From Chryseobacterium shigense (GTDB taxonomy: Bacteria > Bacteroidota > Bacteroidia > Flavobacteriales > Weeksellaceae): 64,000 nucleotides of DNA. Position 1 is the first letter of the stretch, and each line of letters begins with the position of its first letter. Position numbers and translations under genes: made by a program. Location: positions 1,488,001 to 1,552,000 of the forward strand of contig NZ_JACHLC010000001.1 in the NCBI RefSeq assembly GCF_014207845.1. Reading direction: 5' to 3'. The notes beneath the pieces are model-generated. The model was not told the origin of the DNA. It saw only the letters and a list, made by a program, of their open reading frames with translations, and ran no database searches. This document shows, piece by piece, positions 53,986 through 64,000 of this stretch.

Positions 53986-54022
53986 TAAAAAAAACAGCAC
54001 CAATAAAACTATGGTACTGTTT
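53986..54022 (-). terminator. Terminator of the HTH gene
   Basis: AAACAG.ACCA / TGGT.CTGTTT stem with one internal mismatch; on the minus strand an eight-T run follows. Confidence 0.6.
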
Positions 54023-54145
54023 AATACTTCTATAAAAAAACTAACTCAACCTGCAAAGTAAATTGCATATCAGGAGAGTGATCGGATGAATTACAGTCAG
54101 GAAAAATTTCGGGCCCAACTGTTATAAAAGAGAAAGAATATTTTT

Positions 54146-54511
54146 TTAATTTCGGATTCTCATTGAGGCAATATTTAAATCATTGGATGAAAGCAGTTTA
54201 TTCCATCTGGCTATGGTATTTCTGCTTAATTTGAAATGTATTGCCAGCTGTGTGTTATTAAGCTTGTTTTTTCTCTGGTAATCTAAAATTTCGCGTATTG
54301 TTGAGATATCATAGGATTTATGCCTCTGATTTGCTACGAATCTTTCTTTATTTTTTTCCTCAAACAACAAAGAATTCAGCTTAATAATATCTAAAAAAGA
54401 CAATTCTTTCTTTTCCAGAATAGATTTACACAGTTCTTTTTTTTCCGGATATTTTTCTTCTACAATATCATTATATATTTTCTTGTAATCTGGTGATCCT
54501 GGTCTTTGCAT
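54146..54511 (-). CDS. Transposase-type helix-turn-helix protein
   Basis: 121 residues, basic. The C-terminal half holds an HTH of the transposase-derived type (ILDYQRKNKLNNTQLAIHFKLSRNTIARWNKL). The N-terminal part (YKKIYNDIVEEKYPEKKELCKSIL ... LSFLDIIKLNSLLF) is helical. There is no DDE catalytic domain. Small proteins of this kind are frequent in Chryseobacterium and relatives, and are probably domesticated DNA-binding proteins. It sits between the polysaccharide locus and the secreted-protein array. The array-type promoter at 54836 points toward it but through a decayed gene. Confidence 0.7.
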   Translation of the reverse strand: MQRPGSPDYKKIYNDIVEEKYPEKKELCKSILEKKELSFLDIIKLNSLLFEEKNKERFVANQRHKSYDISTIREILDYQRKNKLNNTQLAIHFKLSRNTIARWNKLLSSNDLNIASMRIRN

Positions 54512-54702
54512 GACTTATTAACAATTTAATTTATTTAAGTTTATCTTTACATACTCATTTTCCTCTTACATATTTCCGTACTGTGTTTTTTAAAAGGGCC
54601 GAAGTGTGGCTGATCTCCGGCCAATAACAACAAAAAAACTATGCAGCCACAAACAAATATCAATTTTTTCGGGTACGTTATATTTTAAACCTGATCTGTT
54701 TT

Positions 54703-54795
54703 TTAAACTTTTTTCAGGATAATTTCCAGATCAAAACAAAACGCCTGTGCTGGTAAAAATGTACCTGCCGGAAACAGCAGCCTTATTTCACCCAT
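54703..54795 (-). pseudogene. Decayed start of an array-family gene
   Basis: A 30-codon frame beginning with ATG at 54795 reads RLLFPAGTFLPAQAF at residues 5-19, which aligns with the array signal peptide KTLFWAGTLLLSAQAY (member at 59704). The match then ends and a stop follows. It starts 41 bases after the array-type promoter at 54836, the same distance as in intact members (44 and 51). I take it as the leftover 5' end of a lost member. The rest of 54512-54702 holds a GGCCG/CGGCC hairpin (54597-54622) and no gene. Confidence 0.6.
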
Positions 54796-54835
54796 CTGCT
54801 TTTTGTTACAAAATAATACTGGTTTTAAGAGCTGG

Positions 54836-54895
54836 TGCAAATATGTACCATTCATTTTTTTTATGAAAAAAAACAGATATTACATATCTATGACA
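54836..54895 (-). promoter_or_regulatory. Array-type promoter P3
   Basis: On the minus strand: TGTCAT (54895-54890), 5 bases, TGTAAT (54884-54879), 29 bases, then GGTACATATTTGCA (54849-54836). The same design occurs at 58023 and 62673. Confidence 0.65.
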
Positions 54896-55091
54896 TATTC
54901 ACATTACCTGTCAATTGTATCCGGGTGGATCTGCAAACTTTCTTCAGATCATTAAAAAAATCCAGTCTCATCCACCTGCATTACCTATAAATGATAGCAT
55001 CTTAGGTTATTTGTTAAAAGAAAACCAGGTGATTGCTCTTAAGTATAACAGTTGAAATAAAATTTCAATAATATTATATTTACGATATTCT

Positions 55092-56000
55092 TTATTTAAG
55101 ATAAACATCAGCCCTGCCTATGGCATGGTAAACTCTAACATCACCTACAGTACCTCCTTCATATTCTCTTTTTGCCTGTAAAGTAAATGTATAAGTTCCG
55201 GGGGTAAGACCTGAAATGGAATATAGTGTTCCGAAATTAGAATAAGCAATAGGAGTAGGATTGGGAGTATTATTCTGGTACCAGCTTACCATACTTACTG
55301 AACCATATGTTGTTGTTGCTGTTCCCGTTTGGGCAATTTGGAAACGTAACGAGCCATATGCATTTATTGAGGAGCCATATACCATTGTATACCCCGTAAA
55401 ATTCAACACTACTTTTGCATTGGAAGAAGGTACGGTCACAGTAACTGAAGAGCCAGGTATCGTAACATAATTGTTTCCTGCAGGCAAACCTGACAATTGC
55501 CCTCCTGTAACTGGTGTACTGGAGTTATAATCAACAAGACTTTGGTTAACATCAGCGTCCAGATCCCATCCATTGATTCCACTGGCCGTAAGTGTGGCAA
55601 ATTTTCCTGGCCGTAAAACAAAAGTACCGGTATTGGCGATGTAGCCTCCCAAACGCATGATCTGGCCGGATGCTGCAGTTAAGGTTAAGATATTAGACGT
55701 ACTGTTGTTCTTGATATAGTATTTTCTACCCATGAAATCTGCTGCTGTACCGTCAGTTGCAGATTTTGAAGGAAGGCTCAGAGTAAGGTCTGCTGTTCCT
55801 GAAAAGGAAACATGATAGTCTTTAGGATTAAGCACCTCTGTTGCTGGTATTGTTGTTGTTATAATTTCACGGAAATTGCCTTCAACAGACCCTCTTACAT
55901 CCATTGTACTGGAGGGTGTCGGTGTATTTATACCGACCTGAGAATAGGCATGGGCAGATAAAAATAGTATGCCTGCCCAAAATAACAGTTTTGTTTTCAT
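55092..56000 (-). CDS. Secreted array-family protein, member 1
   Basis: 302 residues. Signal peptide 1-20 (...SAHAYSQ), then VGINTPTPSSTMDVRGSVEGN, the N-terminal module shared by all six close members and common in Bacteroidota surface or tail-fibre-like proteins. Residues ~50-155 are a conserved beta region (DYHVSFSGTADLTLSLPSKS, GRKYYIKNNSTSN, LTLTAASGQIMRLGG, GINGWDLDAD). Residues ~160-245 are variable; the end (PGTYTFTLQAKRE ... GRADVYLK) is conserved again. There is no T9SS tail, lipobox or catalytic motif, so it is predicted to be exported, with unknown function. Last gene of the P2 group, 71 bases after member 2. Confidence 0.72.
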   Translation of the reverse strand: MKTKLLFWAGILFLSAHAYSQVGINTPTPSSTMDVRGSVEGNFREIITTTIPATEVLNPKDYHVSFSGTADLTLSLPSKSATDGTAADFMGRKYYIKNNSTSNILTLTAASGQIMRLGGYIANTGTFVLRPGKFATLTASGINGWDLDADVNQSLVDYNSSTPVTGGQLSGLPAGNNYVTIPGSSVTVTVPSSNAKVVLNFTGYTMVYGSSINAYGSLRFQIAQTGTATTTYGSVSMVSWYQNNTPNPTPIAYSNFGTLYSISGLTPGTYTFTLQAKREYEGGTVGDVRVYHAIGRADVYLK

Positions 56001-56071
56001 TGTGTTTTTTTAAATCTTTATTATATAATACGGATCAAAATAAAATTGTAATGATCCATAAGACGTATTGT

Positions 56072-56980
56072 TTATTTTATATAAACTTCTGCTTTGCCTG
56101 TAGAACCCAAAATTCTGACTGCAGTTACAGTGCCTGTTTCGAAGGCTCTCTGTACTGCAAAAGAAAATGTGTACGTTCCGGGATCAAGATTGGTAACAGA
56201 ATAGGTTGTGGAGAAATTAAATCTAGGGCCATTAGTTCCGTTATAATTGTACCATTGGTCTTGTATTATCTGAGCATTACTGGCTCCATACTCTGCCAAT
56301 GCCGTACCTGTCTGTTTAATATAGTATTTTAAATAACCGCCTGAACCAGCTGAACCGGTAGTCTCTCCATATCCTGTAAAAATTAATTCTACCTTTGCAC
56401 CTTTAAAAGGCACGGTTACAGTAACAGGAGAATCAGTCATGATATATCGGTCATAGCTTCCGGGAGTTGGAGGTACATTTTGTGGTGTTGCAAGTATAGG
56501 TCCTTTAAAATCCATATCTACAAGCTTCCAGTCTACCTTGGTATCCACATCCCATCCATTAGCTCCGCCAGCTGTAATTACGGCAAATGTTCCCGGCTGT
56601 AAAACATAGGTGTTTGTACTGGTTCCGTACCCTCCTAAACGTATAATGTCTCCGGATGCCGCAGTTAAGGTTAAAATACTGGCTGTGCTGTTATTGCTGA
56701 CATAATATTTTCTTCCCCTGAAATCTGCTGCTGTATTATCTGTAGCCGATTTTGAAGGAATGCTCAGAACAGCATTCGATGTCCCCGAAAAAGAAACATT
56801 ATAATCTGTATTAGTAAGAGTGTATGGTCCTGTAATTTCTGTAATTTCGCGAAAATTACCTTCAATAGATCCTCTTATATCCAGGGTACTGGAAGGTGTA
56901 GCTGTGGTAATACCCACCTGAGAGTAAGCATGTACCGATAAAAATAAAGTACCTGCCCAAAATAACAGTTTTGTTTTCAT
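56072..56980 (-). CDS. Secreted array-family protein, member 2
   Basis: 302 residues, same order as member 1: signal peptide, VGITTATPSSTLDIRGSIEGN, conserved beta region to ~155 (NGWDVDTKVDWKLVDMDFKGP), a variable part, and PGTYTFSFAVQRAFETG with GKAEVYIK at the end. The segment WKLVDMDFKGP also occurs in member 5 (WELYDVDFKGP), suggesting these two are closest or exchanged sequence. It shares the P2 transcript with members 1 and 3. Confidence 0.72.
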   Translation of the reverse strand: MKTKLLFWAGTLFLSVHAYSQVGITTATPSSTLDIRGSIEGNFREITEITGPYTLTNTDYNVSFSGTSNAVLSIPSKSATDNTAADFRGRKYYVSNNSTASILTLTAASGDIIRLGGYGTSTNTYVLQPGTFAVITAGGANGWDVDTKVDWKLVDMDFKGPILATPQNVPPTPGSYDRYIMTDSPVTVTVPFKGAKVELIFTGYGETTGSAGSGGYLKYYIKQTGTALAEYGASNAQIIQDQWYNYNGTNGPRFNFSTTYSVTNLDPGTYTFSFAVQRAFETGTVTAVRILGSTGKAEVYIK

Positions 56981-57106
56981 TGTGTTTTTCTTTTTTGTAA
57001 ATTTTGTTTTTGAATTTTACGGTATACATTAAAATTCCGTTCAAAATTTATGTGTTGTTTTGTATGCTCCGGATTGAAATAAATCCCGCTAATTGAATAG
57101 AATGTA

Positions 57107-57979
57107 TTATTTATAATAAACCTGTGCTGTGCTTGCCGAGCTCCAGATGGTAACATCACTTATACTTCCCGCTTCTGCTTCTCTTTTTGTCTGTAAAGAA
57201 AATGTATAAGTTCCGGGAGCAAGATTGGTAACGGAGTATGCCGCTTTGAAACTAAAACAGACAGGAAAAACTCCACTGTAGTTGTACCAGCTTATCATAT
57301 TTACTGAAGGATATGTTGCCACTGCTGTACCTGATTGGGCAAGTTGAAAACGTAATGTACCCAATGAATTGGCTGATCCGCCTGCAGTTCCCAAACCTGT
57401 AAAATAGAATACTATTTTTGTACCCGCAGTAGGCACGTTCAAAGTAATCGGAGAATCGTTCAGTGTATAATAGCCGCTTGCGGGTACAGTTTGTGCTACA
57501 ACCTTTGGTCCGTTGGCATAGGAGTCAATAATAGTCACATAGGAGTCAGTACTCAGATCCCATCCGTTGGTTCCGTTTGCCGTAAGTACTGCAATTTTAC
57601 CGGGCTTTAGAACGTAGGAATTATTATTTGTGATATTGCTTCCTAAACGCAAAGTCTGTCCGGTGGCTGCATTTAAAGCTAAAGTACTTGTTGTACTGTT
57701 ATTCTTTATGTAGTACTTTCTGCCGGTGAAATCTGTTGCGGAACCATCTGTTGCAGCTATTGCAGGAAGGTTCAGAGTTGAATTTAATGCTCCGGAAAAA
57801 GAAACATGATAATCTTTAGCGTCAAGATCATATGTTGTTGTGATTTCACGAAAATTCCCTTCAATAGACCCACTTACATCCAGGGTGCTGGAAGGTGTTG
57901 GTGTATTAATACCTATTTGGGAATAAATGGGTGCCGATAAAAAAAATGCACTTGCCAAGAATACTAATTTTGTTTTCAT
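57107..57979 (-). CDS. Secreted array-family protein, member 3
   Basis: 290 residues from the ATG at 57979; the frame is open 16 codons further upstream, but those codons overlap the leader and P2. Signal peptide (...SAPIYSQ), IGINTPTPSSTLDVSGSIEGN, conserved region to NGWDLSTD, then a variable part with YTLNDSPITLNVPTAGTK and the end GTYTFSLQTKREAEAGS ... TAQVYYK. Similar variable-part segments occur in member 6 (YYTLTDSPVTVTVPAPGAK). It is the first gene after P2. Confidence 0.72.
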   Translation of the reverse strand: MKTKLVFLASAFFLSAPIYSQIGINTPTPSSTLDVSGSIEGNFREITTTYDLDAKDYHVSFSGALNSTLNLPAIAATDGSATDFTGRKYYIKNNSTTSTLALNAATGQTLRLGSNITNNNSYVLKPGKIAVLTANGTNGWDLSTDSYVTIIDSYANGPKVVAQTVPASGYYTLNDSPITLNVPTAGTKIVFYFTGLGTAGGSANSLGTLRFQLAQSGTAVATYPSVNMISWYNYSGVFPVCFSFKAAYSVTNLAPGTYTFSLQTKREAEAGSISDVTIWSSASTAQVYYK

Positions 57980-58022
57980 TATGTGTGTTTTGTTCTTGAG
58001 GTAGGCTGGTTTAAAAACCTGC

Positions 58023-58083
58023 TGCAAATTTGTATCTTTTTATCTTTTCCTACCAAAGAAATGCCTATTACATAGATATGACA
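58023..58083 (-). promoter_or_regulatory. Array-type promoter P2
   Basis: On the minus strand: TGTCAT (58083-58078), 5 bases, TGTAAT (58072-58067), 30 bases, GATACAAATTTGCA (58036-58023); 44 bases before the ATG of member 3. Confidence 0.7.
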
Positions 58084-58503
58084 CCGTTATAAAGAACTGA
58101 TTTTCAACACACAATAAAAGCAATTTTTAAAACTATATATCCATTAATAATTTAATAAATTAATCTTTTTTTTAATTATGATTGATATTATAAAGAAATA
58201 GGTAACACCTGTTTTTGTAAAAAGAAACATATGTTACCTATTTGAAATACCTGCGTTATCATCCGGATAAAATCAAAAACTTTCAAATTATTTGAAAAAC
58301 CAGGTTTCAGTTATCCGGACCAACAATACCTATAACAAGTTTACCCGTTTGTAAAAAGATGAATCTAAACCAGTCCGTAATTTTTTCATCCCGCTTTATG
58401 ATTTAACAGAATGCATGCATTATAATTTTGCCCAGGCTTTGTTTGTTAATCATTTTTTTAGAATCTATTATATCATTCGGACTGAATAAGTATACTACCC
58501 TTT
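58084..58503. other. Region between P2 and a decayed member
   Basis: No coding frame is visible on either strand; AT-rich sequence, probably what remains after deletion of an array member. Confidence 0.4.
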
Positions 58504-58566
58504 CTATTTTAAATAAACTTCTGCTCTTGGCCATGCAGAGGCATTATAAATTAGAGGCTTATTTCT
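58504..58566 (-). pseudogene. Decayed 3' end of an array-family gene
   Basis: Read on the minus strand, the last ~17 codons are LIYNASAWPRAEVYLK plus TAG, matching the ends of intact members (VVPRAEVYLK in member 4; IWSSASTAQVYYK in member 3). A stop codon lies two codons beyond the matching part, and no upstream family sequence is found. The 58570-58744 stretch that follows shows no gene. Confidence 0.7.
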
Positions 58567-58744
58567 CTAATTATTTGACCGCTCATGCCCAATAATATTA
58601 AAACTTTATTAATACTGATTGATTAAGTTAATTTGTATAGCACATATATCTTACCCGGCAAAATTATTTTTATGTAATATTACTGTTGTATTAGTTATTT
58701 AAAGTCTCCCTAAAGGGGAAATTAAAAAAATCATGTCACTTTAC

Positions 58745-59539
58745 CTATAACTCATATATAGATAAGAAAGTACGGCCATTTTGTATGGTACGGGCAACAT
58801 TATTATTATACATCCATCCTCTAATTGTCAGTTGCTGACCCGCATTCATTGAAACAAGACCATTAATACTTAGTGTCGGACCTTCACTGGAGGTATTACT
58901 GGAAACAGAAAATACATTACTGTTTGATAAAGCAACGGTTCCGTTTACCACAGCATCAAAATAGAATTCATTACTTGAAGTACTCCAATTAGCGGAAGGG
59001 GCTAATAAAATATTAGCATTGACCATATAATAGCCTGTTCTGGGTGCTGTAAATGTATTTGTCGCAAAATTATTGCCTATATCAAAAGCTTCAGTATAGG
59101 AAAGTACGGTAAAAGAGCCTCCCGATGAACTTCCATTAGCCGGAAAACTTACTGTGCTTACACTTCCTTTAAACATAGCTTTTTGAGTAACACCTGCCAC
59201 TACTACATTTCCCGTAGTATCAACTCCCAGCCCTGCCGCATTGGCAACCGGAGTTGATGAGCTATTCATATTGGTAAACTTTAATCCTGATGAGCCATTG
59301 ACTCCGGATGAAATTTCCAGTTTGGATGTAGGGATATTTATTCCAATACCTACATTTCCTGTAGCTGTTGCTACAACATCGTTAAGTTGCTGGGTTGCAT
59401 CGGGAGCTCCTGTTAAAGGATTATCTTTACCTCCGTCAATGTGGAACATAGCCTGTGGATTTGAGGTATTTATTCCAACTTGCGAATACCCAAATAAAGA
59501 AACAAGCATAAAACAAAAAATTGTAATTTTTTTCATCAT
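58745..59539 (-). CDS. Secreted C1q-like protein, divergent array neighbour
   Basis: 264 residues. Signal peptide (...LFGYSQ), then VGINTSNPQAMFHIDGG and a second GNVGIGINIPTSKLEISSG unit, repeats common in Bacteroidota fibre-like proteins. Residues ~125-264 look like a C1q/TNF-like jelly roll (ATNTFTAPRTGYYMVNANILL ... LTIRGWMYNNN). It shares only the signal peptide and the first module style with the six close members. It may be controlled from the P1 side by read-through or have its own promoter in 59540-59703. A trimeric adhesin-like role is possible. Confidence 0.72.
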   Translation of the reverse strand: MMKKITIFCFMLVSLFGYSQVGINTSNPQAMFHIDGGKDNPLTGAPDATQQLNDVVATATGNVGIGINIPTSKLEISSGVNGSSGLKFTNMNSSSTPVANAAGLGVDTTGNVVVAGVTQKAMFKGSVSTVSFPANGSSSGGSFTVLSYTEAFDIGNNFATNTFTAPRTGYYMVNANILLAPSANWSTSSNEFYFDAVVNGTVALSNSNVFSVSSNTSSEGPTLSINGLVSMNAGQQLTIRGWMYNNNVARTIQNGRTFLSIYEL

Positions 59540-59703
59540 GAATATATTTAGAAATTTATAAAAATGTACCCCCTTTTAATTGAGATATCTCTTTCTTTCG
59601 TAACTAAGCGGTACATTTCAGGTAGAGTAATAAAAAAGGGGTAGTAAAAATATTTTGGAATCTATGATGTTATAATTCTGATCTAATGATTATCCTAAGT
59701 TTT

Positions 59704-60600
59704 CTATTTTAAATAAACTTCCGCTCTGGGAACTACTAAGTAATTCCAGATCTGCAAACCCGCAGCCCCAGCTGACTCAGATTCCCTTATCGCCTGCAAA
59801 GAAAATGTATAAGTTCCCGGTGCAAGATTAGAAACAGGGTACATTATTGAGTAATCTACTGCACATGCGGTTGAAACACTATTAGGCTCAACCCAGCTTA
59901 GCAAGCTCACATTATCATAAGTTGCAGATGCTGAGCCCGTCTGAGCAATCCGGAAACGCACTGTACCATATACACCAAGTGCTGATTGCGACTGTATATT
60001 TAAACTACCTATAAAACTTACTACTGCTTTTGTGTTTGAAGAAGGGACAGTAACAGTAATCTGGGAGCCATTCAATGTAGTATATGAAGTTGCATTAACT
60101 GCATTTTGAAGAGAGAGATCCTTAGTAGGTGCTACGTAAGGTAAATTTACAAGCTCCGCATTGACATTAACATCCAGATCCCAGCCATTGGCATTTCCAG
60201 CTGTAAGTGTTGCAGATTTTCCGGCTTTTAAAACAAAAGTATTACTGTCCGGAGTACCACCACCCAAACGAAGGATCTGTCCGCTTGCCGCAGTTAAGGT
60301 TAAAGTAGCTGTTGTACTGTTATTCTTGATATAATACTTTCTGCCTCTAAAATCTGCTGTAGATCCATCTATGGCAGATGCTGCAGGAATGTTCAAATTT
60401 GAATTGGATGTTCCTGAGAAGGAAACATGGTAGTCAGTACCAAGAAGAGTATCTGTACCTGTAATTTCACGATAGCTTCCTTCAACAGATCCTCTTACAT
60501 CAAGAGTACTTGAAGGCGTTGGTGTGGTAATACCTATCTGAGAATAGGCCTGTGCTGACAACAATAAGGTGCCGGCCCAAAATAATGTTTTTATATTCAT
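59704..60600 (-). CDS. Secreted array-family protein, member 4
   Basis: 298 residues: signal peptide (...SAQAYSQ), IGITTPTPSSTLDVRGSVEGS, conserved region to NGWDLDVNVNAELV, variable part (LNGSQITVTVPSSNTK ...), and end PGTYTFSLQAIRESES ... PRAEVYLK. Its 3' end is closest to the remnant at 58504. It follows member 5 after 74 bases with no terminator between. Confidence 0.72.
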   Translation of the reverse strand: MNIKTLFWAGTLLLSAQAYSQIGITTPTPSSTLDVRGSVEGSYREITGTDTLLGTDYHVSFSGTSNSNLNIPAASAIDGSTADFRGRKYYIKNNSTTATLTLTAASGQILRLGGGTPDSNTFVLKAGKSATLTAGNANGWDLDVNVNAELVNLPYVAPTKDLSLQNAVNATSYTTLNGSQITVTVPSSNTKAVVSFIGSLNIQSQSALGVYGTVRFRIAQTGSASATYDNVSLLSWVEPNSVSTACAVDYSIMYPVSNLAPGTYTFSLQAIRESESAGAAGLQIWNYLVVPRAEVYLK

Positions 60601-60674
60601 TGTGTGTATTTCCTGATTATGATATAGTGAATAATAGATTGAAAAAAAAATCAGCAGTCATATGGCATACTTTA

Positions 60675-61547
60675 TTATTTTATATAAACTTCTGCCTTGC
60701 CCGTGGAACCCATAATATTAACCGAGCTATAAGGGTAATTAGTCAACCCCTGATTTGTTGGAGTGATATTAAACGTATATATTCCGGGGGATAGACCTGA
60801 AATAGAATATCCTACTGTGAAATTAAATTTGGGGTTACTGCTTCCTGTATAATCATACCATGACTTTAAACCCACATTTGAGTTGTAATATGCCGGTGTC
60901 GGACCTTGTTGATTTATTTGAAATACTATTCTGCCATTTCCATCAGATCCTGCATTAATCCCTTGTCCATACCCTGTAAACTCAAGTAATACTATTGCAT
61001 CTGAAGAAGGTACAGTCACCGTAACCTGGGAATCAGCTAATGGGGGGACTCCAACAAGTACTGGTGTCAAATTCGGACCTTTGAAATCTACATCATATAG
61101 CTCCCAACCGGTATCGGCTTCTAGATCCCAGCCATTAACTCCTCCAGCCGTAACGATTGAAAACCTTCCCGGCCTCAAAGTAAATGTGTTGCTATCGGCT
61201 ATACTGCCTCCCAGACGAAGAATCTGCCCGCTTGCCGCAGCTAAAGTTAAAGTAGCCGTTGTGCTGTTATTCTTAATATAATATTTTCTGCCCCTGAAAT
61301 CTGCCGTTGTATTATCTGTAGCGGATTTTGAAGGAAGCGTAAAAGTAGAATTTCCGGTACCGGAGAAAGAAACATGGTAATCATTAGCCAGAAGAGTATA
61401 TGAACCTGTAATTTCACGATAACTCCCTTCAATAGATCCTCTTACATCCAGGGTGCTGGAAGGTGTGGATGTGCTGATACCTGCCTGAGAATAAGCCTGT
61501 ACTGATAAAAACAGAGTGCCTGTCAGGATTAATATTTTTTTATTCAT
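60675..61547 (-). CDS. Secreted array-family protein, member 5
   Basis: 290 residues: signal peptide (...SVQAYSQ), AGISTSTPSSTLDVRGSIEGS, conserved region to NGWDLEADTGWELYDVDFKGP, variable part, and GIYTFNITPTNQGL ... GKAEVYIK. The late segment differs most from the other members, lacking the usual Arg-Glu after YTF. A partial promoter core (CAGATTTGCA on the minus strand, 61573-61582) precedes it, but no TGTCAT repeats, so it may depend on read-through from P1. Confidence 0.72.
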   Translation of the reverse strand: MNKKILILTGTLFLSVQAYSQAGISTSTPSSTLDVRGSIEGSYREITGSYTLLANDYHVSFSGTGNSTFTLPSKSATDNTTADFRGRKYYIKNNSTTATLTLAAASGQILRLGGSIADSNTFTLRPGRFSIVTAGGVNGWDLEADTGWELYDVDFKGPNLTPVLVGVPPLADSQVTVTVPSSDAIVLLEFTGYGQGINAGSDGNGRIVFQINQQGPTPAYYNSNVGLKSWYDYTGSSNPKFNFTVGYSISGLSPGIYTFNITPTNQGLTNYPYSSVNIMGSTGKAEVYIK

Positions 61548-61663
61548 TGTGTGTATTTTGTTTTTAAATTGTGCAAATCTGAAACGATCCGTAAATTTTC
61601 ACTGTTTGCTTTTGATAAAGCAGATTAAATTTTTTCATCTTCATTCTGCCTGCAGCTTTACAT

Positions 61664-61683
61664 CAATTGAAAAAATTCAATTG
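61664..61683. repeat. 20-bp inverted repeat between members 6 and 5
   Basis: CAATTGAA / TTCAATTG with a 4-base spacer lies 66 bases after the stop of member 6. It is too AT-rich and lacks a T run on the minus strand for a clear terminator. Confidence 0.4.
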
Positions 61684-61749
61684 TTGTTGTCTGTTGTTCT
61701 GTGCCAGAATGTGTTGAAATAAAATGATAATATGAAGCTGAATTGCCTT

Positions 61750-62622
61750 TTATTTGATGATGACTTCTGCTTTTCCTGCCGATCCCCAGACATTCACACT
61801 ACTTACAGTACCTCCTTCTGCTTCTCTTACGATCTGCAAAGAGAATGTATAAGTGCCGGGAGCAAGATTGGTAATGGCATACGCCGTTTTGAAATCATAA
61901 GCTGTGGTCCCTCCGGTTCTGGTGTACCAGCTTTGTGCAGCTGCCAGAGCATATATTGCAGCCGATGTACCTGTCTGTGAAAGTCTTAAACGTACGGTAC
62001 CACGGGAATTAGCCGATCCTGCTGCAGTTCCGTAACCCGTAAACTTCAATATTACTTTAGCCCCCGGAGCAGGTACAGTTACGGTAACCGGAGAATCGGT
62101 GAGCGTATAATAACTGGTGCCGGCAGATATAGCCTGTGCTGCAATTTTTGGCCCATTAGTAGCCACATCGAAAAGTCCCCACTTGATTTCTTCCAGATCC
62201 CAGCCATTAGCTTCACCCGCTGTAAGTACAGCGAGTTTTCCCGGCTGTAGAACAATAGTATTGCTATTTACGTTAACCAAACCACCTGAGCGGATGATCT
62301 GTCCCGATGTTGCTGTTAGGGTTAAAGTACTGCCTGCACTGTTGTTTTTGATGTAATACTTTCTGCCTCTGAAGTCTGCTGCCGAACCGTCTGTGGCAGA
62401 TTTTGAAGGAAGATTCAGCATTGAATTTGATGTTCCGGCAAAAGAAACATGATAATCCTCACTTTTAAGATTATCCGTGGCTGTAATTTCCCGGTAATTA
62501 CCTTCAAGAGACCCTCTTACATCTAGAGTACTGGAAGGTGTTGGCGTTGTAATACCCACTTGCGAATAGGCTGCTGCAGATAAAAAAAATGCACATGCCA
62601 TTAGTAATGGTTTTGTTCTCAT
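61750..62622 (-). CDS. Secreted array-family protein, member 6
   Basis: 290 residues: signal peptide (...SAAAYSQ), VGITTPTPSSTLDVRGSLEGN, conserved region (DYHVSFAGTSNSMLNLPSKS, GRKYYIKNNSAGS, NGWDLEEIKWGLFDV), variable part and end PGTYTFSLQIVREAEGG ... GKAEVIIK. It is the first gene of the array after the strongest promoter (P1, four repeats), and lies next to the TPR/LuxR-type regulator. Confidence 0.73.
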   Translation of the reverse strand: MRTKPLLMACAFFLSAAAYSQVGITTPTPSSTLDVRGSLEGNYREITATDNLKSEDYHVSFAGTSNSMLNLPSKSATDGSAADFRGRKYYIKNNSAGSTLTLTATSGQIIRSGGLVNVNSNTIVLQPGKLAVLTAGEANGWDLEEIKWGLFDVATNGPKIAAQAISAGTSYYTLTDSPVTVTVPAPGAKVILKFTGYGTAAGSANSRGTVRLRLSQTGTSAAIYALAAAQSWYTRTGGTTAYDFKTAYAITNLAPGTYTFSLQIVREAEGGTVSSVNVWGSAGKAEVIIK

Positions 62623-62672
62623 CCTTATTTGTGTTGTGTTTTCGTTATTAAATTATTGATCTAAAAACAGGA

Positions 62673-62754
62673 TGCAAATTTGTACCATTTGTTCTTTTTC
62701 TACCTAAAATCAGGTATGACATGAATATGACACAAACATGACATAGATATGACA
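62673..62754 (-). promoter_or_regulatory. Array-type promoter P1 with four periodic TGTCAT repeats
   Basis: On the minus strand TGTCAT occurs at 62754-62749, 62743-62738, 62732-62727 and 62721-62716, each exactly 11 bases apart. After 29 bases comes the core GGTACAAATTTGCA (62686-62673), 51 bases before the ATG of member 6. The spacing of one helical turn puts all repeats on the same DNA face, as expected for sites bound by a multimeric activator. Confidence 0.75.
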
Positions 62755-62974
62755 CATGTGCAACAACTTAAAAATCAACACACAGAAATTAAATTATTTC
62801 TGTCTTCAGGTTTACAAAAAACAGAATAAGACCAGCCAGCAGCCAAAATCATCATGATAAATGATAAAATTTTAATTCTGTCTTCATTAGCAGATGCATA
62901 GTTTCGGGCAATCCCGGAATGAAACAGAACTGATTTTATATGGGTATTTTTTAATCGGAAAAGTGTGAAGTACG
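62755..62974. other. Region between the regulator gene and P1
   Basis: No gene and no clear terminator for the regulator gene were found; only AT-rich sequence upstream of the repeats. Confidence 0.4.
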
Positions 62975-64000
62975 TCAGAGGTTCTTCATCCAGATATAAA
63001 TGTCTTCATCTGAAGTGATATTCAGCCTTTTTCTCAACCTGTTTTTCCTGGTTTGGATAGATTGAGGCTGCACAAAGGTATAGGCAGCGATATCTTTTGT
63101 AGAGAAATTGAGAAACAGCAGGGCACAAAATTTCAGTTCTGTATTCATAAGCTGTGGCTCAATTTTCAGCAGTTTCGGAAATAATTCAGGATAAACTTCC
63201 TGAAAACGGGCAAGAAATTCAGGGTCATTTTTTTTGGCCAGCTGTATGACCTCTTCAAAGGCAACGTTCAGTTGTTGGTTAAGTTTCTGGGTTTCCTGCT
63301 CTTTTACATTTAATACTTTATCATTGTTTTTTATCCGTTTATACACAAAAAAGACAATTACAGCTGTACCCGCAATTCCTGCAAGTATAATATACAATAA
63401 AAGATTATTCTTATCCTCCAAAGGTTTTTGCTTTTCCTCCACAAGAACTCCAACGGTATCTTTCAGGTTATTTTCATCTACTGTTTTCAGACTGTCATTC
63501 AGAGCGTTGTATTTAAGCTCATATTTTTTTTGATTATCAGTCTGTCCTGTTTTTTCATATACCGTGGATATTAAACCGTACAGCTCTGCCAGTTTTCTAA
63601 AATTCTTTATTTTTGCAGCAAGCTCTATTGCTTTTTTATAGTCTACAATAGCAGAATCATATTGTTTTCTCGCATCGTGAATCTGTCCTAAAAGCTTGAA
63701 TGCTGCAAATTCATTATTACCTAGTTTTATGGGTACGGATTGAGCGGATTTTACATAAAATTCAGCAGAATCAGTTTTATTCTGATTAATCTTTGCCTCA
63801 CCCAAAAGTAATGTTACAATTTTTAAGTTTGTATTCAGGCCTATATCCATTTTTTTAGCCCTTTTAAACTCCTGAATAACACTCTTTCCATAATAGGTAG
63901 CAGAGTCATAATTTTTTTTCTCTATATAATTTCTGGTGATCTGGGTGAGGAGAATTCCTTTCAGCGAATATCTGGCGGAATCGTTTTTTATATTGTCAGC
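62975..64000 (-). CDS. TPR sensor with LuxR-type HTH (partial, 5' end outside window)
   Basis: The frame is open to the window edge (341 codons visible), so the Met at 63850 is internal. Tetratricopeptide repeats fill the N-terminal part (DSATYYGKSVIQEFKRAKKMD, DSAEFYVKSAQSVPIKLG, DSAIVDYKKAIELAAKIKN). A membrane helix (LLLYIILAGIAGTAVIVFFVY) and a coiled coil follow, and the C-terminal ~70 residues form a LuxR/GerE-like HTH (LNFSTKDIAAYTFVQPQSIQ, then TRKNRLRKRLNI). Such one-protein membrane regulators are frequent in Flavobacteriia. It lies directly upstream of the array on the same strand, with P1 in between, and is the obvious candidate to bind the TGTCAT repeats. Confidence 0.82.
   Translation of the reverse strand, partial: ADNIKNDSARYSLKGILLTQITRNYIEKKNYDSATYYGKSVIQEFKRAKKMDIGLNTNLKIVTLLLGEAKINQNKTDSAEFYVKSAQSVPIKLGNNEFAAFKLLGQIHDARKQYDSAIVDYKKAIELAAKIKNFRKLAELYGLISTVYEKTGQTDNQKKYELKYNALNDSLKTVDENNLKDTVGVLVEEKQKPLEDKNNLLLYIILAGIAGTAVIVFFVYKRIKNNDKVLNVKEQETQKLNQQLNVAFEEVIQLAKKNDPEFLARFQEVYPELFPKLLKIEPQLMNTELKFCALLFLNFSTKDIAAYTFVQPQSIQTRKNRLRKRLNITSDEDIYIWMKNL

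Follow-up and report, generated by a model that had tools for sequence, protein, structure and literature searches.

Among the features of this stretch of Chryseobacterium shigense DNA (64,000 nucleotides, hereafter the window), one raises a simple question: why should a single hexamer recur four times, at a strict period of 11 bp, just ahead of a row of genes for secreted proteins, and which protein would read it? The answer that we favour, at a probability of somewhat less than four in five, is that the repeats form the operator of a membrane-anchored one-component activator, which would control its own gene together with the secreted-protein array. This reading was assembled from comparisons of sequence across the window, the rest of the source genome (G000) and related genomes. 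In a literature search, neither the regulator nor the motif turned up in any title or abstract and, to our knowledge, no operator is known for any such TPR-HTH protein.

Phased half-sites and their distance from the promoter

The four TGTCAT copies lie on the minus strand at 62749-62754, 62738-62743, 62727-62732 and 62716-62721, in the exact 11-bp period described by the first-pass annotation, and the 29 bases that it had counted between the last copy and the promoter core GGTACAAATTTGCA (starting at 62686) were found as well. Its further point, that such phasing would be hard to get by chance, also held. As a single word TGTCAT shows no excess in the window (28 copies vs 35.0 expected), and about 3e-10 sets of four exactly phased copies are expected from the word's own frequency; it is the sole hexamer in the real window with four copies at any fixed spacing of 8-24 bp, and none recurred four times at such a spacing in 40 Markov-resampled windows. 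A chance origin of the phased copies was rejected on these two results. Within positions 54000-64000, no Rfam family reached its gathering score.

Two more operators, each with two half-sites, occur in the window (Table 1), and both (at 58083 and 54895) are then followed by a TACAWATTTGCA core. Downstream of the third one, the next open reading frame of at least 60 aa begins 384 bp away and is a small HTH gene (54146-54511); a decayed remnant of the array may possibly lie between the two, according to a weak sequence match (E 0.68).

Table 1. Features of the locus (positions in the window, except where a stretch L012 is named)
Feature	Position	Strand	Remarks
473-aa TPR-TM-HTH regulator, N-terminal end beyond window	62975..64000 (full gene L012:976-2397)	minus	
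478-aa paralogue upstream of the 473-aa gene	L012:2540-3976		own operator, site L012:4159
First operator, four TGTCAT half-sites, period 11 bp	62716..62754	minus	5' ends 62754, 62743, 62732, 62721; from sequence and resampling
-33-like element TTTTAG, degenerate	62704..62709	minus	from site alignment; many related promoters have TTTG there
-7-type promoter core TACAAATTTGCA of first operator	62673..62684	minus	TTG starts 44 nt after proximal half-site
First array gene, 290-aa secreted 'QVGITTPTPSSTLDVRGS' protein	61750..62622	minus	
Array paralogue	60675..61547	minus	no TGTNATN5TGTNAT site upstream
Array paralogue	59704..60600	minus	no TGTNATN5TGTNAT site upstream
Secreted protein, only N-terminal part common with array	58745..59539	minus	no TGTNATN5TGTNAT site upstream
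Second operator TGTCATATCTATGTAAT	58067..58083	minus	two half-sites, before array gene starting 57979
Promoter core TACAAATTTGCA of second operator	58023..58034	minus	TTG 45 nt after proximal half-site
Array paralogue downstream of second operator	57107..57979	minus	
Array paralogue	56072..56980	minus	
Array paralogue	55092..56000	minus	
Third operator TGTCATAGATATGTAAT	54879..54895	minus	two half-sites
Promoter core TACATATTTGCA of third operator	54836..54847	minus	

The geometry was then followed over 51 sites from this and related genomes, gathered by half-site pattern and regulator loci rather than by distance to TTG; of sites sharing their first 45 bases one was kept, similar promoters from related species are still among them, and where a third copy read TGTNGT it could serve as the proximal half-site. 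The promoter TTG begins 44 or 45 nt past the proximal half-site in 46 of the 51, against a shuffled expectation of 2.0, both distances being near four helical turns; a motif strewn without regard to promoters is thus not what is seen. A TTTG-like peak stands 14-16 nt after the same half-site. Likewise, an exact hexamer repeat at 11 bp is found in 19 of 56 regions upstream of regulator or QVG genes (those coding for the secreted proteins described below), with 0-6 at the other spacings from 8 to 33. The original description needs widening in two respects: TGTCAT is indeed present, yet the general form of the half-site is TGT[C/A]AT and not TGTCAT only, and the four copies are real here, yet exceptional, two being the norm (two half-sites in 44 sites, three in six and four in one, the first operator of the window).

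In a study that maps start sites in F. psychrophilum, the -7 consensus is TAnnTTTG and the -7 box extends from -12 to -5 (PMC9723704). With the box so placed, the proximal half-site would cover approximately -51 to -46, and the TTTG peak would fall at the -33 element. This position upstream of -33 argues for an activator rather than a repressor. The same TPR-TM-HTH protein could bind and instead repress, or form a silencing complex that a signal relieves, and autoregulation through the same site is compatible with that; however, operators that lie upstream of -33, leave the -7 core free and keep a constant 44/45 spacing have the geometry of an activator contacting the polymerase, and we consider repression quite unlikely. 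The degenerate -33 element of the first operator counts against the reading favoured here.

Regulators, array and sites in the source genome

Directly upstream of the array, two regulator genes stand in tandem (Table 1), the one for the 478-aa protein with TGTAGT/TGTAAT/TGTAAT repeats before its start. Both proteins have a signal-peptide-like start (as seen by eye), TPR matches, a C-terminal HTH and, outside the start, one 19-residue stretch of hydropathy at least 1.6 followed by K/R-rich residues. The structure model of the 478-aa protein (mean pLDDT 89) comprises a TPR solenoid, a long helix (287-389) and the HTH, whose second helix (445-458) is the recognition helix. We propose that a signal peptide is followed by a TPR solenoid in the periplasm, a single transmembrane helix, a coiled coil in the cytoplasm and a GerE-like HTH, a layout in which the TPR part would sense something outside the inner membrane. 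A search of G000 with the regulator gave 19 matches, which include partial ones and cases where one gene accounts for two.

Modelled alone (pLDDT 93), the HTH resembles GerE-type domains with modest scores, a comparison of predicted folds that is suggestive. The PF00196 (GerE) profile gave 19.2 and 15.4 bits, below the curated cut-off of 23.5, and for this reason the regulator is not filed as a member of the GerE family. Two NCBIfam families show a weak likeness, both far below their curated cut-offs: NF053779 (BT3442 family) on the HTH, over residues 400-465 only (33.7 bits, E 1.6e-8; cut-off 940), and NF053520 (FimS TPR sensor) on the TPR part (21.6 bits, E 5.5e-5; cut-off 600), FimS being, unlike the regulator here, a histidine kinase of a two-component system. 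In the alignment with NarL (model 30-93 to 151-214), T450 falls on NarL residue 189, one of the three (188, 189 and 192) that we take to be its base contacts. The alignment with Listeria DegU (model 31-93 to DegU 161-223) places Q446, Q449 and T450 on K194, K197 and N198 by its end points. These three DegU residues were modelled as base contacts, and N198A lowered binding (PMC9263151).

The array consists of six paralogous secreted-protein genes, with 46-57% pairwise identity between their products, plus one gene that shares only the N-terminal part. This common part, a signal peptide followed by a QVGINTxxPxxTLDV-like stretch, covers only about the first 35 residues when array proteins are compared with three further secreted proteins encoded in the regulon or the array. 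A module of about 35 residues at the N-terminus is also what otherwise dissimilar secreted proteins have in common (window 55092-62622; L011:2491-3942; L012:5683-6345). Sixty homologues of the array protein are mostly named hypothetical protein, and every one with a stated organism comes from Chryseobacterium. A scan of two array genes and three further targets against Pfam and NCBIfam gave no family above its cut-off.

The genome-wide search suggested by the first-pass annotation turned out in favour of a promoter-linked motif. Over the 4.15-Mb genome, TACANATTTGCA occurs four times, three of them inside the window; TGTMATN5TGTMAT has 16 matches and its reversed control 4; and the half-site pattern with a promoter TTG at the fixed distance gives 7 + 4 = 11 matches, against none for the reversed control. 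Two of these 11 sites precede TPR-HTH regulator genes (C1:1554158, C2:254211) and five precede secreted QVG-type genes (62732, 58083, C1:1555590, C1:606732, C2:260052). One more (C10:19276) precedes an apparently broken QVG gene, and three have no intact gene close by: 54895, C2:260126, where the next open reading frame (842 aa) begins 804 bp downstream, and C1:305904, with no open reading frame of 60 aa within 1 kb.

Co-occurrence with a regulator clade and covariation at base 4

The sites follow one clade of regulators. Across 56 named regulator loci, 26 of the 27 sites fall in the 15 loci with a regulator at least 43% identical; 12 of these 15 have a site, as against one site in the other 41 loci, and the reversed pattern gives 4 matches over all 56. 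In a sample of 98 genomes of the genus, the strict motif TGTNATRYCTATGTNAT was found in 8 of 11 genomes with a close regulator vs 4 of 87 without (Fisher p = 5e-7), a count in which the match of G050 lies in coding context, this genome also having promoter-positioned sites. Promoter-positioned matches, counted by hand, were 47 in the 11 close-regulator genomes (reversed 2) and 57 in the other 87, mostly background given a reversed control of 43, with some belonging to clusters with more distant regulators (G012, G053, G067, G072). No 11-bp phased word stood out in 35 regions upstream of more distant TPR-HTH genes. Six stretches combine a QT-helix regulator with the lack of a strict site (L036, L068, L076, L079, L168, L169), and L068 has an imperfect copy of the motif. 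Matches in L056 and L058 (same coding context), L061 and L052 were set aside as background-like. Outside the genus, three of four matches (G149, G134, G154) are without a regulator or QVG gene in 12-19 kb, and the fourth (G214) has a regulator; G190 and G203 have one motif match in common.

The fourth base of TGTNAT changes in step with residues in the recognition helix of the regulator next to the site: QS..QT is accompanied by A or C, QA or RS..QI mainly by T, and RA..Q(I/M/L) by G. In G000, base 4 is only C or A in the C1 cluster (QSVQT, QSIQT), and the C2 paralogue (helix QAIQI) has TGTTAT in 8 of the 8 half-sites of its cluster. Over 24 clusters chosen by hand from loci with sites and a regulator, 16 QT clusters have C42 A31 G1 and eight non-QT clusters have G11 T10 A3; half-sites within a cluster are not independent, and by cluster the result is 15:0 for QT, with one tie (L072, which has no promoter-positioned half-site), vs 1:7 for non-QT (p = 3e-5). 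Left out of this set were L070 and L074, the latter holding QT and QI regulators, with TGTAAT/TGTCAT and TGTTAT/TGTAAT. This covariation points, at the level of sequence, to the HTH protein at 62975, already named as a candidate in the first-pass annotation, and to its tandem partner.

Six further TGTGAT clusters were approached with an expectation written before the sequences were read: five have a regulator, and an RA..Q(I/M/L) helix is present in all five, including G214, from another genus of the family; the sixth, G267, has none in 19 kb. The new C/A clusters G288a and G303a have a QT helix, and G303, outside the written expectation, has QT regulators with C/A sites except for one TGTTAT half-site (TGTTAT/TGTCAT). 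Four C/A cases were not counted as new (G211, G297, G299 and G261, on contigs of equal length to L073, L069, L079/L082 and L081): G211 and G297 are QT and repeat loci already used, and in the stretches of G299 and G261 a regulator is lacking. G288b matches L074 and was likewise not counted. Overall, a site is present with no regulator in the stretch in G267, G299a, G299b, G228, G261 and G303b.

In a tree built without the HTH, T450 changed to I on two separate branches, and both clusters are mainly TGTTAT. Supported branches give three independent pairs, two in the same direction and one with no base difference, a number with which a sign test cannot reach significance. There are also exceptions: L165 has TGTGAT/TGTGAT near QT regulators, at a spacing of 46 and not 44/45; the sediminis locus has one TGTGAT/TGTAAT site; G053 combines A-type half-sites with AAVQL; and in the TGTGAT cluster of G287 a KG..QT regulator lies beside an RA..QI one.

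These data bear on two other candidate binders. Many clusters, that of G000 on both flanks, are adjoined by small HTH proteins (of 140 aa and about 112 aa), which might themselves bind the repeats. However, the covariation, as followed in the TPR-HTH proteins, is with the helix of these, and no small HTH protein was detected by sequence pattern in L073 and L074 (13.4 kb each), nor in the 19-kb stretches L211 and L204 (same or very similar locus), all of which carry sites and regulators; they also occur beside distant regulators without the motif (e.g., L037, L039), and we judge such a role very unlikely.

The second candidate is a response regulator of the PhoB/OmpR type, with an array that answers to phosphate. 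The E. coli Pho box is made of CTGTCAT direct repeats with an 11-bp period, a match in both word and period, and OmpR-type winged helices bind direct repeats, as in the half-sites of KdpE. As in PhoB operators, head-to-tail TGTCAT-like half-sites lie upstream of a promoter. The resemblance ends there: the position just ahead of the proximal half-site reads A40 G10 T1 over the 51 sites, never the leading C; PhoU (PF01895) is absent in G000, although 13 of 14 control genomes were positive; the HTH is GerE-like; and the sites go together with the TPR-HTH genes, their base 4 differing according to the helix. The missing PhoU, the missing leading C and the helix covariation led us to reject a Pho box, a reading that we consider very unlikely.

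A candidate circuit among known regulators

Returning to the membrane-anchored activator, its HTH monomers may bind head to tail and cooperatively on TGT(C/A)AT every 11 bp, along one face of the DNA, so that the proximal half-site (about -51 to -46) adjoins the -33 element and RNA polymerase would be recruited to a TAnnTTTG-like -7 core. In this way the regulator would switch on both the gene that encodes it and a small set of genes for secreted 'QVGINT...LDV' proteins, those of the array included. Paralogous regulators would keep this geometry but have T or G as base 4, a position recognised by residues 446, 447 and 450 (478-aa numbering), two of which align with the contacts proposed for DegU, and this divergence could keep the paralogous circuits apart.

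ToxR, CadC and SusR are membrane-anchored one-component activators, and the DNA-binding domain of ToxR and CadC is a winged helix. The predicted regulator resembles them in having an extracytoplasmic part, a single membrane pass and a cytoplasmic DNA-binding domain in one chain, and differs from them in its TPR sensor and in a C-terminal, GerE-like DNA-binding HTH. In contrast to the NarL, DosR and DegU type of GerE (LuxR) domains, it has no receiver domain, and its sites, as read from the DNA, are direct instead of inverted repeats. GerE-type domains such as NarL prefer inverted repeats, which makes head-to-tail binding atypical; if true, the present case would be one of a GerE-like domain working on direct repeats in phase, a kind of site other than that preferred by NarL.

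On a wider scale, we would give even odds to the existence, in Chryseobacterium and at least one neighbouring genus, of a family of insulated circuits, each formed by a TPR-transmembrane-HTH regulator with its own secreted-protein cluster. One rigid geometry (11-bp head-to-tail half-sites, 44/45 nt to the -7 TTG) and a single base read by two or three helix residues would then make up a natural specificity code for a GerE-like domain on direct repeats. Fixed geometry and a base-to-residue code would make it possible to assign secreted-protein clusters to the regulators that drive them, and swaps of one base or one residue could probe the insulation of paralogous circuits. The operator also opens the question of what the periplasmic TPR domain senses.

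Some minor observations concern the genes around the operators. In some genomes, operators also precede a large gene of 922-931 aa (MKNKLIFA...; L074:9428, L204:5981, L205:17088), and the regulon is thus not only one of QVG proteins. The operator L013:2777/C10:19276, at the end of contig C10 after a tuf-like gene, precedes an apparently frameshifted QVG-type gene, which, from this one stretch, looks like a decayed QVG gene. The C1:305904 operator (L009:2921, minus), with no intact target, is 87% identical over 97 bp to that of G228 (L209:9368), which precedes a different gene in the other genome; this similarity ends shortly after the promoter, and the promoter seems to have been kept while the downstream part differs. 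Finally, the small HTH pair occurs beside many TPR-HTH regulators (window 54146-54511; L012:4839-5261; L034:3084-3892; L037:413-1149), and its 140-aa protein is weakly transposase-like.
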